Below are positions 2,283 to 27,428 of a DNA stretch of 64,000 nt, piece by piece. The notes under the pieces are model-generated. The model made no database searches and had not been told where the DNA came from. It saw only the letters and a list, made by a program, of their open reading frames with translations. The position numbers were made by a program, and so were the translations under genes. How positions within the stretch are numbered: the stretch's first letter is position 1; each line of letters starts with the position of its first letter. Origin of the DNA: Darksidea phi (taxonomy: Eukaryota; Ascomycota; Dothideomycetes; Pleosporales; Lentitheciaceae); contig JASJFT010000090.1 in the NCBI GenBank assembly GCA_030770425.1, positions 1-64,000 on the forward strand, written 5' to 3'.

Positions 2283-4631
2283 ATGAATGAAGTGCGTTAT
2301 GAAACCCCTTTTCCCAGTGCGCTATGCTGAATATTGCTAGTCCGAGAGGGTTCAAGTCAAGAAAAGACCGCCGTTCGTAAGAATCCTTGCTCTCAATGGC
2401 GGCGGAGCTCGATGTTGGTCAGCACTCCTCATCCTAGAGGAAATCATGAGGGCCGTCTCAAGAAGATCCGGAGTTGCAGCTCCGTTGCCTTGTGAATACT
2501 TCCATTTGATCGTAGGCTCTGAATGGGGAGCTATACTCGCTGTTCTGCTGGGAAGGCTCCGACTAGTGAGTCCTGCATCGTCTTTCATCTCACACCTGCG
2601 CTAACGACGAAGGAAGAGTATAAAAGAATGCCTAAACTGGCTCCAAACACTTGCCTTCCCTTATAGCAGTGGCGTTTTTCGTATTTTCCCGATAATTCCA
2701 TCGTGGAGGAGTAAGTACTACAAGCAACGCTTCAGAGAGCTAGTCAAGGACCGATTTCCGGATAGTGGGGGCGATTTGTCGTTTTATGATCAGAATCTGC
2801 CGGAAAACCATGCCCTTACCATGGCTCTAGCTACGGATCCTATGGAGATTGCAAAGCCGAAGCGATTCAGAAGTTATCGTGGTGACGCAGAACCTGACAT
2901 GGGGACACCAATTTGGCAGGTTGCTCTGGCAGCGATAGCAACGCCTCTAGATTTAGACCCGGTTACATTCCCAGCGATTAATACGAAATTGGAGTATACG
3001 TGTATCGCGTCCTCATTGGCTGGATTCAGTAACCCGTCATGGATCAGCCTCATCGAAGGCCAGGACCACTTTGACCCGAATAGCGTTCATGCTGTTCTGA
3101 ATATCGGATGCGGTGGGAAGGTTGATTCCTGGTGGGCACCAGCTTTGGGTCATAGACTACCCGTTGTAAGAGGACTTGCTTTGACGAGGATGGTGATCGG
3201 GCAAGTTAATGATCCCACCGGTACAGTGAAGCAAGTGGAGGCACACCGGCAAATGCTGCGGGAAAGTGCGAACACGGGCCTCTATTATCAGTATTTCTCG
3301 GTCCCGACGGTTACGACCTCATACTACGATTGGTCTAAGGACAGCCGCAAACAGATACAGCAGAGGACTGAAACCTACCTAGATACTCCTGAGATCGGCA
3401 GCCTAATAGAAGCGGCTGCGGAACAGCTTGTTAGACTGAAAGACCTTCCAGTGGCGGAACAAGGAGCCTCTATTCCGTCCATTGATCCGTCACTGGTGTT
3501 GGGTAACAGGCGAAACCCATGTCTCTTTAATATCGAAGAGGGCGTAAATGCAACAGGGTGGCTCTCGGAGTTCCAAAAAACCCTTGATCTGGTCAGTTGC
3601 TTTGATGAACCATTTCCTCCAGTTAGACTAGCCATATTGGATACAGGTATAGATGGCAATCACCCTTGGATCAGCAAACATTGGAAACATCAGTCGGACA
3701 TGCATTTCTTCTATGACTTCACGAAGACTTCAGGCTCAGAAGAAGCGGTCCCAATTGACGAAACTGGGCATGGTACTCATATGGCCGGCCTGATTCTCCA
3801 AACTGCACCAGACGTCGATTTGTACGTGCTCCGAGTGTTCACCGATAGACAGTTTGACGGTGACCGGGGCAAGGATGCAATGGAACGAGTCCGAAAGGTA
3901 TGTAGAAATTGCTGACAAGTGATACTCCCAACAATGCTAATAGAAAGTAGGCCATTTTCTTCTCTGTGGATACGCTTAAGGTCAACATTATCTCCATGCC
4001 ATTTGCATTCGAAGGCAAAAATGAGCATGCTCTAGACGACGCCATTACCAGAGCAATGGAGAAGAACGTAGTCATGTTTGCAGCCGCTTCAAATTCTGGA
4101 CATCATAGAGAGGACCCGTATCCGGCAAATGATCGGCGGGTATTCCGAGTGAATGCGGTGGACGAGTTCGGGAATCGCATGAAGTTCAATCCCCCGGCCG
4201 GAACCGACAACAACAATGATAACCTAGCCATATTAGGAGGTAACTTGGTTTCTGCCTGGCCAATGCACTTATCTGGAGGACGTGAAGAGCCGGGTAAGGA
4301 GGGAAATTGGAGGGAGTCTTCCGGAACGTCATGTTCCACGGCTTTATTAAGCGGAATATGCGCTTTGACAATGGGCTTTGGGCGAATCCTCCGAGCACGG
4401 CCAGAATTTCGAGCCAACAGCCGAGAAGCTATGGAGACTTGGGCCTACGTGGACAAGCCGCAGGGAATGCGGTATCTGTTCTGGCAAATGGCAAATGGTC
4501 GCAATAATAGAACGTCGGACCAATTCTCGGATATTCGTCCATGGCGACTACTGAGCACAGATAAGAATATCAGCGGGATCGGGAAGTTATATCTAGATGC
4601 ATTGCAGTTAGGAAAAGACGGTATGGGATAA
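2283..4631 (+). CDS. Patatin-like (catalytically dead) / subtilisin S8 fusion protease, partner of a gasdermin-like gene
   Basis: Four exons: 2283-2291, 2341-2565, 2617-3897, 3951-4631; introns of 49, 51 and 53 bp, all phase 0, 731 aa. The 9-nt first exon (MNE) is the weakest part of the model. Residues ~15-340 follow the patatin fold: a glycine-rich anion loop (NGGGAR, 22-27), the LGRLRL/SIKEC segment and the FRSY region. The nucleophile elbow G-x-S-x-G reads G62-S-E-W-G66, so the serine is glutamate, and the catalytic Asp-Gly motif is replaced by Ala-Ser around residue 209; lipase activity is therefore unlikely. Residues ~410-700 are a peptidase S8 domain with an intact triad: Asp420 (DTGIDG), His463 (HGTHMAG), Ser632 (GTSCSTALLSG), plus oxyanion Asn553 (ASNSG). 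No nucleotide-binding domain or signal peptide is seen, so it is probably cytosolic. It converges on the gasdermin-like gene with 27 bp between stops. By analogy with Podospora HET-Q2 it probably cleaves and activates that protein; this is inference. Confidence 0.85.
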
Positions 4632-4658
4632 GGATATTAATTGCCCGACTATCGGCCG

Positions 4659-5585
4659 CTAGTATGTATTTTTGATTACGACCTGAGCAGGCTCATCCGA
4701 CGATCCATCATCATTACTGTCATCGACATCAACTATCTGGTAGCTGGCATATAGAAGTTCAGGGCCGAAATCTTCTGCTTGCAGTCCAGTCACTTCGAAC
4801 GCAGGTTTGGCACTCAGGTCCTTGCTAGGATTGCTGCCTCGCCCAACGGAATTATCGTTTTCCAACTCGTGCACTGCTCCTCTGACGTAGTCCTTGGTTT
4901 TGGAAACTATATGCAATCTATCTTTGTTGATCTTCTTCAGGCGATATGCAAACACAAAATCGGACGATCCCGAAAAGCTGGTCGCCGATGCCGTGCTCCT
5001 CTCGATAGAGCCACTTGGACCAAGAGTAATTGGGGCTCCGGTGACAGCGGTTAAATCGACACCAGCACTGCCCTCAACTCCATACTTCAATTTCTTCAAA
5101 CGTTCAATAGCTGCTCCTCGAGCGACCTTGATTCCCGTAACAATAAAGGCCGATTTGCGCGGATTTTCCTGGTAGAAGCGCACTGCCTCGGGAAAAGACA
5201 TAGCGGCACGAACATACTCCAAATCGGGCTCAATGAACGAAGTTTCCAGATGATCAAATTTAAGAATGTCGCCTTTCTCACACTCCAACAGTAGAGATAC
5301 ATCGGCACCAATTCCCAAGATGGAGGCTAGGAACTGAGTCCACACTCCCACGGATCCTCCCATGAGTTTCTTCTTACTTGACTCCCAATTTTTCTGGATC
5401 GAAGTATAGACCTCTGGCACATGTTGAAGAGGAGGGTGCGGAGGAGGCGGTGCGACAACATCGGTGGGCTTTTCGAAGTCGTAAATGATCTGGCCGAGCC
5501 TAACAACGCTGTCGGGTGGCGTGTCGAAGTTCGGCATCTCGAAGTACGTAGGTTTGTTGTTCATGTTGGGCGATGGGAATAGCAT
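4659..5585 (-). CDS. Gasdermin-like pore-forming cell-death protein (HET-Q1/RCD-1 family)
   Basis: Single exon, 308 aa from ATG 5585; ATG 5564 (Met8) is an alternative. Features matching the fungal gasdermin family as I know it: the N-terminal SVVRLGQIIYD motif (26-36) followed by a proline-rich stretch, VWTQFLASILGIGADVS (81-97), FIVTGIKVARGA (147-158), and DFVFAYRLKKI (209-219) in the C-terminal part of the pore-forming domain. Length is close to the ~280 aa of HET-Q1. The last ~25 residues are acidic (DVDDSNDDGSSDE, 286-298). In the known systems a short C-terminal segment is removed by the paired protease, releasing a membrane-permeabilising form that causes regulated cell death. It lies tail to tail with a subtilisin-fusion gene, the expected partner. 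There is no signal peptide; the protein would be cytosolic and act at membranes. The family call is from motif recognition, not from a search. Confidence 0.85.
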   Translation of the reverse strand: MLFPSPNMNNKPTYFEMPNFDTPPDSVVRLGQIIYDFEKPTDVVAPPPPHPPLQHVPEVYTSIQKNWESSKKKLMGGSVGVWTQFLASILGIGADVSLLLECEKGDILKFDHLETSFIEPDLEYVRAAMSFPEAVRFYQENPRKSAFIVTGIKVARGAAIERLKKLKYGVEGSAGVDLTAVTGAPITLGPSGSIERSTASATSFSGSSDFVFAYRLKKINKDRLHIVSKTKDYVRGAVHELENDNSVGRGSNPSKDLSAKPAFEVTGLQAEDFGPELLYASYQIVDVDDSNDDGSSDEPAQVVIKNTY

Positions 5586-8475: not shown

Positions 8476-10803
8476 ATGTTCAGCTGCTACAGGGCCCAGT
8501 CGAGGGGCTTGGGGAGGACGACGACGAGTGTGAGTGCCATTGAGCCCTGGTTGACTCACCCACCTTTCACATGCAGCACTTGACCCATACTTTTGCACCG
8601 CGTATTCTGACCCATTGTGCCATAGGTGCTCTCTAGACACGATAACACTCCCAAGCTTCGCAGCTTGGAATGCGCGTCCATCTCAACTACAACACTTCGT
8701 CCTGCTTCCGGCATTGAGCCCGCCCGCACCAGTCGAAAAAGTGTCGCGAAGGAACGCCAACGCGCTGAACGCGACCAATTGACCCGCCTCCTGAAAGAAT
8801 CACCCGTAAAACGCGATGCTAAAAATTTCCTCAAACACTTCGACACGGCGACGGCAGAGACCGGGGGAGCTACGAAGGTCGAAAAATTTGCGCAAGAGGC
8901 GGTGGACAGGGCGCACCACAATGAGTGGAGGTTGACAAAGACAGGCGTAAACTTGGGTAACCTTTACGAGCCTACGAAGGCTGTGCAGGAAAGCCCAGTG
9001 TTCACGCAGCAGGAGCTACCAGAGAAGAAGCCGCGGGAACATACTGCAGAGCCGCTGCATCTGGCATTGGTCAAGCTACGGCAGCCTCAGGCGCTGGATG
9101 ATGAGACGCTGGGCGGGATTGCTTTGACGCTGAGCCAAATGGCAAAGCTGGGACTCAATATTGCGGTCGTGGTTGATTGCGATGAGGATGGCGCATCGGA
9201 GAGGCTGGAACCAGATCCTATCTGGGAGGCCACCGTGCGGGACCAGACGTCCCGAATTGTGGACGCACTTGAGGACTACAATGAGCCTGGAGCTTTTGCG
9301 GTAGAGCACGCATTGTGCCATTCCAACGTTAATGCCGAGATTCAGAGCACCATTCAAGTCCGAGGCGGGGTGGAGGTGAAGCACAACTACTTGCTCTTTC
9401 CTCCAATTGAAGAAGGTATTATCCCAGTGATACCGACGTTTGCTTACGACTCGGAGCTGAAGAAGGTTCGAGTGCGTGCCGACGATGTGGTTCTCGCCCT
9501 CACTCGCGAGTTCGCCGGCGTCACTACTCAGCACTGTTGTGAAAATGGCCCGCAGGAGCGGGATGATGCCATCAGCAACAAACAACAGCTATCGGGAAGA
9601 CCCGTCATGGATCGGCTCATCATTTTAGATCCCCTTGGAGGCATTCCTTCACTGGATCGAGCGGATGGAGCCCATGTCTTTATCAATCTGGAAGCAGAGT
9701 ACCAAGACGTTAGGAAAGACTTGCAGAGTTGCTCACCAAAGCCGTCTGGGGAAGGCTGGTCAAGCGTTTCGTCGCCAGACAATAGCAATCCGTTCTCAAA
9801 ATTTGTGGGGACTGAGATTGCTCCTCTACCAGGTTCCAAGGCGAGGCAGATATCAAGTGACGCCCTCCCCTCACGCCATATTCAGAATCTAGATACGGTT
9901 CAGCGAGCACTGAGGCTTCTTCCTCCTTCATCGTCTGCCTTGATCATCACACCAGGTGAGGCAGCCATATCATCCCAGATCGCACTGCGGGACTCTCCTT
10001 CCACGGGAGTACGAACACGACGATCGAAGAATCCACTCATTCACAACTTACTTACCGACAAACCAATGATTTCGTCATCACTTCCTGCTCCCCTCGTCAA
10101 CCGTCCTCTCGTATCTGCGGCACCCAACCCAGCGACCTTTCTCAAGAAAGGCATACCTGTCACCATGATCCCGGATCCGCGCATGACCGGACCATGGCAC
10201 ACACCGTCTGCCTCAAATCCAAGCATTGAGCTTGAGAATGATCCCCGCATCAACTTTCCGCGCCTTGTTGATTTGATAGAAGATTCCTTCCGTCGGAAAC
10301 TAGACGCACGGCACTACTTAGATCGCATACGGGGTCGTGTCGCCGGCATTATCATAGCAGGAGACTACGAAGGCGGTGCGATATGTACCTGGGAAACACC
10401 GCCGTCGCTCTCCGCATCATCCCTGCCACCCTCAGATTCACCCCTTTGGGTCCCCTACCTCGACAAATTTGCTGTCCTCACATCTTCCCAAGGCTCCGGC
10501 GGCGTGGCTGACATAGTCTGGGGCGCACTCACCCGATCTGCTTTTCCGGATGGGGTAGTGTGGAGGAGTCGGAAAAGTAATCCGGTCAATAAATGGTATT
10601 TCGAGCGCAGTGTGGGAATGTGGAATTTGCCTGATGGGTATTGGACTATGTTTTGGACCACGGAAGGAGTTGTCGAAGAGTATGCGAGGGCAAAAAGGGT
10701 CGCTGAATGTGGTGGGGAAGATGGGTTCACAAGGTGGGATGCATATGTGGGCGTTTGTGGAGGTGTGAAACCAAGTTGGAAGGACATGTCGAAGCCTGAT
10801 TAG
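8476..10803 (+). CDS. arg2: Amino-acid N-acetyltransferase, mitochondrial (N-acetylglutamate synthase)
   Basis: Two exons: 8476-8529 and 8626-10803 (intron 96 bp, donor GTGAGT, CTGAC branch, acceptor ATAG, phase 0), 743 aa. The long open frame has no early ATG; the short first exon supplies one and reads [18 protein letters not shown], an Arg-rich, acid-free mitochondrial presequence, which supports this start. The body matches fungal N-acetylglutamate synthase: the N-terminal degenerate amino-acid-kinase-like half, and a C-terminal acetyltransferase half with the region around the QGSGG turn and the near-invariant [13 protein letters not shown] followed by W-x-MFW. It makes N-acetylglutamate from acetyl-CoA and glutamate, the first step of arginine synthesis in the matrix. 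Naming caution: the Neurospora orthologue is arg-14, and Neurospora arg-2 is a different gene. Confidence 0.95.
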
Positions 10804-24345: not shown

Positions 24346-26496
24346 TCAGATAATCCAGACCCATTGTTCGTGACTCGATCCCTCATACTTCCCGGGACGA
24401 TTCTCATCATCAACCACGATATGTGCAACATTCCTGCAAATCGCTGAGCCAATTCCATACCAGAGCCCAACACGGACAAACTCATTCATGACTGAATTGC
24501 CAGAGGTACGCAACGCAAGGCCTCGAATGCAATGACTTTTGCCCTCCATAAGGTCAGCACAGCTCATTGTATACATGACAGGAAAGAGGAAAAGCATGCT
24601 ATCAGTAAATTGCGTTGGACGGTCAAGGAACAGCCACAGGACTTCGCCTTCGAGGCTGCACCTTAGTGATCCATTGACCTCTAGCTTGGTAGGGAAAGGA
24701 ATTTTGTATAGACAACCTTTGAGTACGAGCATCAATCCGACATCCACGTCCGACTGTACGCCGTGCACTTGTATGCACAAAGCGTCCGGCTGATCGACCA
24801 TGTAACCGTGACCTTTGACTGCATAGCGGGAGATCGGTGCATCCACTACGGAGGCCCAGCTCCATGAGGGAGCACCAAAGGTTTCCGTGATTAGGTTCGG
24901 TAACTTGCTTTGGTCAACTCTCCAAAGGAGGCCAAAAGTTATGTCCTTCATCCAAAGTCCAGCAGCGTATTGATCCTTTAGGACTTCTTGAAAGTACCTG
25001 GCCATGGATTCAATAGCCACAAGCTTGTCCCCCTTGTTCGTCAATCCACGGCTCATGTAATTTTGAATGAGCATCCTCCACTCGCCGTACATGAACCACC
25101 GATATCTATCTGAACTACCATACTCCGGGTTGGTCTTAACCATAGCCATACGAGCGTGATTACCTTGGAAGAGATAGCCATCGCGCAGGCAGTCCGGAAG
25201 CGATGCTGGGAAAGTTTCGCAGACGCTCCGGCATTCGCATTCCCAGAATACTTGATCAGCGGCGAAATGAATGGTCCTTCTCGATAGGTACTGCTCCTGA
25301 GTGACCCAGGCTCGTCGATTCAAAGGTGCGTTAGAGATTTGGTCCCGTACATATTGTCCGTCGAGAAGCAAGTATAACTTGCTACTTTCATCTGGTCCAG
25401 CGTGGAGTTCAATTTTGCGAGGCAGGATCGACTCAGGATCTCGCGTTGAGAAGCAGCCATCGCGTCCAGAAGTTGCTTTTGTTGCACATATGGTACAATC
25501 AGCAAATAAGTAGACTCGTTGCATTTGGGGCGCTTCTCGGTTCCAGTCTTCGGTAGAATTCTGTACGATGCAGAGACTGTCGATCCAGACGTATTGCAAA
25601 CCCAGGGAACGCACAACACTAAAGCAATCTTGGAAGGACTTAGATAGTGCCGATTCAGGCATTCCAGCTTTAAAGTCTTCGATATTTTCTGTTGTGAGCT
25701 TGAGCAGATTTCCTGAAACATCCGGAGAGCCCCAACAATGGCTCAATGTAGCAAAGCGTAGATTGGCTGGAGCGCCGTGCTCGAAAACCTCAAGGCGCCA
25801 GTAGTTCGATCCTAGGGAGCTCACATTTACCAGCCTGTTAGGTCCGCGACCATTGTTAAGGGCTTCCCGGACGATCCTACAGCCTTTGTGGGTCTCAAAG
25901 CACTGTCGAAACCATGTGCTGACCAAGTCCAGAGTTGCTTGTGAGCCAGTCGAGTTCGATAATGGGAAGGAGGGAATGTGATTCAGTCGTGTAGCAAGAT
26001 CTGGCTGCGCAGCGAGCAAGTTTGCGATAGTCTCTTCGTCCCAATCCGTCGAGAGCTCAGGCAAAAGACCCTGCCAGGGCATGAGCTTAAATATGTGTCC
26101 TACTGCACTCGTTTGCCGTGAGCGCTGACGTCCCAGTTCGAACTTGAGTGTATACTCGTAAGATGGCGTAGGCGGCTCCGGAAGTATATGGACAACTCTT
26201 GAAATGCTGGCATCCTTATCTAAATCCTGCAAGTAATGACTCGAGTCATTGACTAGAATTTGCCAAAGAATGTAGCAGATATAGCAGCCTTTATCCTTTG
26301 AGCTTTCAAGGTCGACCAGAGTCTTGTGATGTTCGTGTATAGTGTTCTCGGGCACTGGGATCAATTCGAGCTCCCTAGTACAGGCATGGCATAGGACTGC
26401 GCTTCGAGTGTCAGCTGGAACAGGCAGGAGGCAGCTCGCCTGCGACGATGAAGGCCGCCGGGGGTCGAATAGGGTCGATCTTTTGGATGTGATCAT
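24346..26496 (-). CDS. Heterokaryon incompatibility (HET) domain protein
   Basis: Single exon. The open frame reaches upstream to 26667, but the first 57 residues are basic low complexity; ATG 26496 (MITSKRSTLFDPRR) is the likelier start, giving 716 aa. After an N-terminal Cys-rich segment (LCHACTREL...CYICYILWQ), the HET domain lies about 250-340 residues in: LRFATLSHCWG, SFQDCFSVVRSLGLQYVWID, SLCIVQNSTEDWNREAPQMQ and ADCTICATKATSGRDGCF, then RRAWVTQEQYLSRR. This is the full order for PF06985. HET domains are TIR-like death effectors of fungal allorecognition; no NACHT or WD40 part is present, so this is the common stand-alone form. It is not adjacent to the gasdermin pair (about 19 kb away). 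Confidence 0.93.
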   Translation of the reverse strand: MITSKRSTLFDPRRPSSSQASCLLPVPADTRSAVLCHACTRELELIPVPENTIHEHHKTLVDLESSKDKGCYICYILWQILVNDSSHYLQDLDKDASISRVVHILPEPPTPSYEYTLKFELGRQRSRQTSAVGHIFKLMPWQGLLPELSTDWDEETIANLLAAQPDLATRLNHIPSFPLSNSTGSQATLDLVSTWFRQCFETHKGCRIVREALNNGRGPNRLVNVSSLGSNYWRLEVFEHGAPANLRFATLSHCWGSPDVSGNLLKLTTENIEDFKAGMPESALSKSFQDCFSVVRSLGLQYVWIDSLCIVQNSTEDWNREAPQMQRVYLFADCTICATKATSGRDGCFSTRDPESILPRKIELHAGPDESSKLYLLLDGQYVRDQISNAPLNRRAWVTQEQYLSRRTIHFAADQVFWECECRSVCETFPASLPDCLRDGYLFQGNHARMAMVKTNPEYGSSDRYRWFMYGEWRMLIQNYMSRGLTNKGDKLVAIESMARYFQEVLKDQYAAGLWMKDITFGLLWRVDQSKLPNLITETFGAPSWSWASVVDAPISRYAVKGHGYMVDQPDALCIQVHGVQSDVDVGLMLVLKGCLYKIPFPTKLEVNGSLRCSLEGEVLWLFLDRPTQFTDSMLFLFPVMYTMSCADLMEGKSHCIRGLALRTSGNSVMNEFVRVGLWYGIGSAICRNVAHIVVDDENRPGKYEGSSHEQWVWII

Positions 26497-26667
26497 ACTC
26501 GGTTTCTTCCAGATCGAGGTTCGAGTTATTAGATGATGCCTGTCCTGGTGCCTGTACTGGTGCCTATTCCTCGCCGCGTTCTTGGCACTGATGCCCCACC
26601 TCGTCCGCGCTTTTCTGGGTTCAACCGTTCTGCGAATGGGACGAATTGAGTGGAACGATATGTGCAA

Positions 26668-27428
26668 CCAATTAGCAGCGTCGTCACATCCACGCTTGAT
26701 CGATTACGGCATGCCTCAATCCGACGTCATTCAGACCCGTACTTTGTTTGCAGGCTCGTACCACTGTTTTCCCATAGATTTTATTCTAGTCACGTGATAA
26801 ACTCTTGAACGTCTTTCGTGTACGTACTAGAAGAATACATAGAGATCGTCGTTAACTATACTATTCTCGAAGTTATGGAGGACGACAGGCACATGACCTC
26901 GATAACCAGCGAAACCATGGCTTCTTGCCAATATCATCACGCGAAACACCACGGAAGCGACTATCAAGTGGCATTTCCTCAATCTCGCGAAAATACCTAA
27001 AACGGGTCATCCTCTACCTATCCAAACAGATAATACTACAATGATTCAATGTCCTCTAACTAATGGATGGGGTTTACGTAACGTATATTCTACTATTAAG
27101 GAGTATATTATTAAACATCTATAAGGTACAATAGGGCAGGCAGGTACCATCGCGTTATTAGTAGTAGAGGTAGAAGTAGGCCATCGTATTCTAGCTATTG
27201 ATCTATAAGCTAGGCTAGTTACATCCTTACTAGTTAATTAAATAGTAAAGGATATCGATCTTGAGGAATGTTTACGACCGACGGGGTCATGTTTCGAATA
27301 TTGGCAGGCGACGAAAGAGACAAGCGTTAAGACTGCTATTGTCGTGTAGTTAGTGCCGCCTCTTTGCAACGTAAGAGAGAGCGCTCGATGATGTCGAAAC
27401 ATTGAACACAGTAAGGTAATAGAATACG

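Follow-up and report, generated by a model that had tools for sequence, protein, structure and literature searches.

What could control a fungal gasdermin when the protease gene that faces it carries a lipase-like domain and no visible nucleotide-binding domain? This question is raised by two genes located near the start of a stretch of Darksidea phi DNA (assembly GCA_030770425.1, contig JASJFT010000090.1), referred to here as the window, which covers positions 1-64000 of contig C468 (178 kb) in a genome of 51.35 Mb and 477 contigs. One gene encodes a gasdermin of 308 amino acids (aa), while the other encodes a protein in which a patatin-like domain is followed by a subtilisin-like S8 protease domain. 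The two are arranged tail to tail, and the 27 bp given between their stop codons in the initial annotation of the window were found again. In our view the two genes quite likely form a module for regulated cell death, of the gasdermin/Q2L kind, in which the patatin-S8 protein would act as the dedicated activator of the gasdermin. Such pairs are common. According to a review, about 80% of the gasdermin genes of fungi stand in clusters with protease genes, and about 63% with S8 protease genes (PMC10197012).

In regard to the gasdermin, the initial annotation had assigned it to the family by its motifs, and the assignment held in an unbroken frame on the reverse strand. A phmmer search against solved structures, which gave nine sequences up to E=10, placed RCD-1-1 (8jyz, E=7e-8) first and the HET-Q1 pore (9uv9, E=1.2e-6) second. 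A profile made from the window gasdermin and its paralogue on contig C112 matched RCD-1-1 at 1.6e-10, HET-Q1 at 8.2e-5, weaker than in the single-sequence search, and RCD-1-2 at 9.3e-4; another gasdermin, the bacterial 7n50, was below significance with this profile (E=0.19). The PADLOC model bGSDM also matches the window protein (E=1.2e-5). Because of the matches to RCD-1-1, HET-Q1 and bGSDM, its kinship with gasdermins can be regarded as well supported at the level of sequence.

The most acidic part of this protein is a C-terminal tail of approximately 68-77 aa, within which residues 241-308 have a net charge of -10. Stretches of 45 residues that equal or exceed the final 45 in acidity are few (11 of 264 in the window gasdermin, 9 of 224 in the C112 paralogue and 8 of 232 in a protein from contig C251 that is gasdermin-like only), and in all three proteins every one of them begins within the final 13 positions of the scan. 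Such acidity hints at a masking tail but goes no further. HET-Q2 is reported to cleave HET-Q1 at Phe238, with a loss of about 40 C-terminal residues (PMC10989679, PMC12881547). Phe263, which would leave a tail of 45 residues as against the 40 cut from HET-Q1, was considered as an equivalent site and set aside as conjecture; it aligns with an Asp in the C112 paralogue.

The partner gene is described by an inferred model of four exons separated by GT-AG introns, which encodes 731 aa and was derived from the reading frame and the splice signals, with intron 1 fitted by eye and kept fixed. For introns 2 and 3, only one of 18 combinations of boundaries stays in frame without an internal stop, and this is the combination chosen. 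The fusion itself is real and independent of the splice model, because exon 3 alone spans most of the patatin domain together with Asp420 and His463 of the protease; two separate genes are disfavoured by the same exon, which crosses both parts without a stop. The stop-to-stop frames of the module, with 436 and 326 codons, are longer than the longest frame (269 codons) obtained in 50 mononucleotide shuffles of the entire window. In Pfam, Peptidase_S8 reached 73.1 bits and Patatin 28.8 bits, the latter just above its cut-off of 27.7, and a search of the 731-aa protein up to E=10 gave these two families only; a nucleotide-binding domain, repeats and a propeptide were all absent from its output. 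Among the subtilisins matched by the S8 part (2e-10 at best) are bacterial intracellular serine proteases, and Asp420, His463, Asn553 and Ser632 presumably have the roles that their counterparts have in subtilisins. No signal peptide was seen by eye in the 731-aa protein, which is probably cytosolic. The complete triad with its oxyanion Asn, Ser632 as the catalytic serine under the same numbering, the fusion and the lack of a visible nucleotide-binding domain had all been put forward in the initial annotation, and each agrees with these results. In the profile comparison that it proposed, PADLOC bGSDM, Pfam Patatin and Peptidase_S8 were matched, and Pfam-A gave no gasdermin match for the 308-aa protein. 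The features of the two genes are collected in Table 1.

Table 1. Features of the patatin-S8 gene and the convergent gasdermin gene, in window coordinates.
Feature	Position	Strand	Basis or remark
Exon 1, Met-Asn-Glu, inferred	2283..2291	+	In frame with exon 2 once 2292-2340 is removed; by eye
Intron 1, 49 bp, GTGCGT...TAG, inferred	2292..2340	+	Fitted by eye
Exon 2: patatin N-terminus, GGGAR from residue 23, degenerate elbow GSEWG from residue 62	2341..2565	+	
Codon of Glu64, aligned with the catalytic Ser of patatins (GTSxG)	2521..2523	+	Alignments to CapV and two own-genome patatins
Intron 2, 51 bp, GTGAGT...GCTAAC...AG, inferred	2566..2616	+	
Exon 3: unbroken 427-codon frame, residues 79-505, most of patatin plus S8 Asp and His	2617..3897	+	
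Patatin-like domain, residues 19-196, PF01734	2386..2970	+	Split by intron 2
S8 catalytic Asp420	3640..3642	+	
S8 catalytic His463	3769..3771	+	
Intron 3, 53 bp, GTATGT...GCTAAT...TAG, inferred	3898..3950	+	
Exon 4: remainder of S8 domain, stop codon 4629-4631	3951..4631	+	
Peptidase_S8 domain, residues 415-646	3625..4373	+	Split by intron 3
S8 oxyanion Asn553	4092..4094	+	
S8 catalytic Ser632	4329..4331	+	
27 bp separating the stop codons of the convergent genes	4632..4658	.	
Fungal gasdermin, 308 aa, unbroken frame	4659..5585	-	Open reading frame, phmmer, two-sequence profile, PADLOC
Gasdermin C-terminal tail, a candidate for an inhibitory segment: residues 241-308 and stop codon, net charge -10	4659..4865	-	Function inferred

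What remained unnoticed in the initial annotation, the interpretation of which stands for the gasdermin/S8 pair and for the patatin fusion, is the state of the patatin domain. Its best match among solved structures is CapV (E=1.1e-4), and a PADLOC phospholipase model matches it at 2.1e-12 and stretches it to residue 247. The GGGAR motif is retained. In the alignment to CapV, the elbow GTSxG is replaced by GSEWG, with Glu64 in the place of the nucleophile Ser; Ser63 is adjacent to this position but out of register. The Asp of the catalytic dyad (DGG/DGA) is missing at the aligned position, which reads IASSLAGFSNP, in a comparison of three proteins that are all from the Darksidea phi genome. By its sequence, then, the domain is catalytically degenerate, and it is probably a pseudo-lipase acting as a sensor, a decoy or an inhibitor. 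Among 11 own-genome segments with the GGG motif, the elbow reads GTS in eight and GTG in two (C20 and C442:133752) and is not visible in one (L031), and Glu at the elbow was seen in the window protein alone when compared with these 11. Patatins devoid of the Ser are not unique to the window gene, given the two GTG elbows. The patatin on C20, a stand-alone frame of 441 aa (L046:3776-5098), is another likely pseudo-patatin, with Ser replaced by Gly (GTGTGG) and Asp also absent, replaced by Gly (QFVGGATGANNP). Sensing of cyclic nucleotides in the manner of CapV was considered for the window domain as well, but this link is weakened because the C20 patatin gives a much stronger match to that PADLOC phospholipase model (8.7e-32 vs 2.1e-12), so that the resemblance is not peculiar to the window protein. 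Further patatin matches are located on the contig of the window, beyond the window itself (C468:87047-87783).

The arrangement recurs in the genome. A search with the window gasdermin found three loci, namely the window, C28 and C112, the last with E=8e-13. On C112, the gasdermin and an S8 open reading frame (ORF) form a second convergent pair with 974 bp between the stops (L005:6378-7370, L044:348-2409). Immediately upstream of this S8 ORF, and sharing its strand, is an ORF that matches DUF7580 (62.8 bits against a cut-off of 27). A probable third pair is found on C251 (L045:3421-6162), where an S8 gene converges at 73 bp with a 276-codon, strongly acidic-tailed frame that is weakly gasdermin-like, and where a DUF7580 segment upstream of the S8 gene is sub-threshold (26.4 vs 27 bits). 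At both loci it is DUF7580, not patatin, that is matched upstream of the protease. The genome holds at least 26 S8 matches, grouped into 19 loci, and at least 23 patatin matches, both counts being lower bounds for which the best candidates only were scored. Judged by match coordinates, patatin and S8 occur less than 2 kb apart at the window gene alone, the next closest being about 12 kb apart on C13. Gasdermins are within about 1 kb of an S8 locus at two of the three loci found by sequence (window and C112), with 19 S8 loci in 51 Mb; as a rough estimate, a single gasdermin would lie this close to any of the 19 by chance with a probability of about 0.002. A further gene diverges from the S8 side on C112 (L044:3406-6771) and on C251 (L045:6452-8332); the two N-termini look alike by eye, and the C112 gene carries ankyrin repeats. 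It is possible that this gene is a third component there, and none was noticed beside the window genes.

According to the mechanism that we propose, the gasdermin would be made in an autoinhibited form, held by its short acidic C-terminal tail. A trigger would then engage or displace the N-terminal pseudo-patatin, after which the S8 domain would cut off the tail, and the freed N-terminal domain of the gasdermin would form pores in the plasma membrane, leading to cell death. The kinship with gasdermins, the S8 residues in place, the fusion, the adjacency and the degeneracy of the patatin active site are supported directly by the sequences compared; autoinhibition, cleavage and pore formation would be carried over from HET-Q1/HET-Q2. 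The pseudo-patatin is read as a sensing or gating domain from its position, because it sits in the slot that is taken by the repeats or receptor-type domains of Q2L proteins and by the DUF7580 ORF on C112. The module as such is favoured by the sequence matches to solved gasdermins, the S8 residues and the subtilisin matches, the recurring convergent pairs and their closeness to S8 loci, the acidic tails, the clustering and the HET-Q1 cleavage described in reviews, and the lost patatin dyad.

Several results weigh against it. No PADLOC model matched the C112 gasdermin at E<=0.01. The C251 frame was missed by the search with the window gasdermin and resembled none of the solved structures at E values up to 1, and its profile match is weak (hhalign probability 44.7, E 2.2e-4 for a single comparison). 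On C28 (L004:6954-7301 and 8478-9590), the gasdermin match contains in-frame stops, due to introns or decay, and it has no S8 match on its contig among the S8 matches of the genome, CHAT proteases not having been sought; the pairing of gasdermins with S8 proteases is therefore not universal. Finally, no orthologue of the pair was found when the gasdermin and exon 3 were compared with viral contigs, when an alignment was scanned against prokaryotic genome contigs, or when exon 3 was run against plasmids (tblastn); these collections are non-fungal, so that the result says little. As a separate observation, the C28 match adjoins a NACHT-type (NPHP3_N) ORF and an ORF that is SesB-lipase-like by eye and has no Pfam match.

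Other explanations also have to be considered. Classic subtilisins carry an inhibitory propeptide N-terminal to the S8 domain. The patatin domain occupies the same side of the protease, for which Pfam gave no propeptide domain, and it could accordingly be a replacement pro-domain, a structural inhibitor that holds the protease off without sensing any specific ligand or target. We consider this possible but somewhat doubtful, as the patatin fold is bigger than plain inhibition requires and reviews give mostly repeats or receptor-type domains as the partners of such proteases (PMC12881547, PMC10197012). It is rather unlikely that the locus serves allorecognition, with incompatible strain variants of the gasdermin and of the protease and no other immune role. 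HET-Q1/HET-Q2 is one such system (PMC12881547, PMC10989679), yet its two genes, although different, are idiomorphs of one locus (PMC12881547), whereas here both genes reside together, and therefore activation would have to be gated. A patatin that is still an active lipase would make the protein a dual effector, cutting membrane lipids and activating the gasdermin at once. Cell death by the PLP-1 receptor does need patatin activity (PMC12881547), the Pfam Patatin match is above its cut-off and PADLOC phospholipase models match, but a second lipase effector is unlikely since the nucleophile Ser is replaced by Glu64, with Ser63 out of register, and the dyad Asp was not found at the aligned position, so that we regard the dual role as highly improbable. 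Least probable is that the genes are chance neighbours or a decaying locus, in which they do not cooperate and the degenerate patatin marks decay: the dyad is lost and a single genome is at hand, but both frames are intact, the S8 catalytic residues are present, and the convergent pairing is seen again on C112 and probably on C251.

A more specific and tentative idea, which we would sooner expect to fail than to hold, is that of a single-chain, inflammasome-like protein. The dead lipase could have been kept as a built-in decoy or ligand sensor for any agent that attacks or switches on the patatin death effectors of the fungus itself, with a direct connection to a protease that cuts the gasdermin. 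Tampering with the lipase pathway would in that case lead to a pyroptosis-like death without any nucleotide-binding receptor. The stimuli that activate fungal cell-death sensors are a major open question according to a review (PMC12881547). A protease joined to a degenerate version of a domain known from death effectors supplies a definite candidate for such a sensor, together with a decoy hypothesis that can be tested. Its confirmation would mean that the partner domain of the protease can be a retired effector, and not a repeat array or a nucleotide-binding domain.

The surroundings of the module include a HET (heterokaryon incompatibility) domain in a 785-aa ORF at 24349-26703 of the window, about 19 kb off. 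A HET-domain gene alongside genes with introns is what a filamentous fungus would be expected to show. Upstream of the module, an ORF of 231 aa on the reverse strand (686-1381) has no Pfam match and bears the aromatic N-terminal motifs WRW, YYY and CWIFQDGERI.

Because gasdermin/protease gene pairs are already common in fungi, the pseudo-patatin-S8 partner looks like the sole new element of the pair. The Q2L architectures are reportedly those of Clave et al. 2022 (PNAS), where this fusion may already be tabulated. A review counts 18 annotated Q2L architectures, which cover about one third of some 1500 sequences, and known Q2L proteins mostly have repeats or receptor-type domains as the partner of the protease (PMC10197012). 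NOD-like receptors (NLRs) with a patatin domain are nearly always of the NB-ARC type in Sordariales (146, 95%), and Peptidase_S8 is a minor N-terminal domain of NLRs, rare or absent in Sordariales (PMC12258605); S8 NLRs adjoining gasdermin genes are mentioned as well (PMC9815663). A patatin-S8 protein was not found in excerpts of PMC12881547, PMC10197012, PMC12258605, PMC11138114, PMC10890737, PMC10989679 and PMC9815663, nor among the entries listed by literature searches, which together represent a narrow part of the literature.

Compared with known systems, the window protein resembles the PLP-1 type (patatin-NB-ARC-TPR) in that a patatin domain forms the N-terminus of what is a putative death protein, and differs from it by the lost dyad, by the protease as partner domain and by having no nucleotide-binding domain or repeats in Pfam. 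RCD-1 of Neurospora crassa is the closest solved gasdermin by sequence; unlike the window gasdermin, it has no linked-protease trigger and is triggered by the co-expression of two divergent alleles (PMC12881547). Within the same genome, the C112 locus also has an S8 ORF convergent with a gasdermin, but the DUF7580 ORF upstream stands in place of the patatin. As in Q2L pairs, where the Q2L gene adjoins its gasdermin gene, the two window genes are neighbours, and their 27 bp lie well inside the 10 kb used to define Q2L genes. The likeness to a two-gene cluster of the HET-Q1/HET-Q2 type, proposed from the outset, is borne out by the gasdermin matches, the S8 residues and the tail-to-tail adjacency, and with HET-Q1/HET-Q2 and the Q2L pairs the locus has in common an S8 partner and a gasdermin of the fungal kind whose C-terminal tail is short. 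It departs from HET-Q1/HET-Q2 in that its genes are co-resident and that its protease, where HET-Q2 is reported as an S8 protease of 388 aa (PMC10989679), bears a pseudo-patatin.

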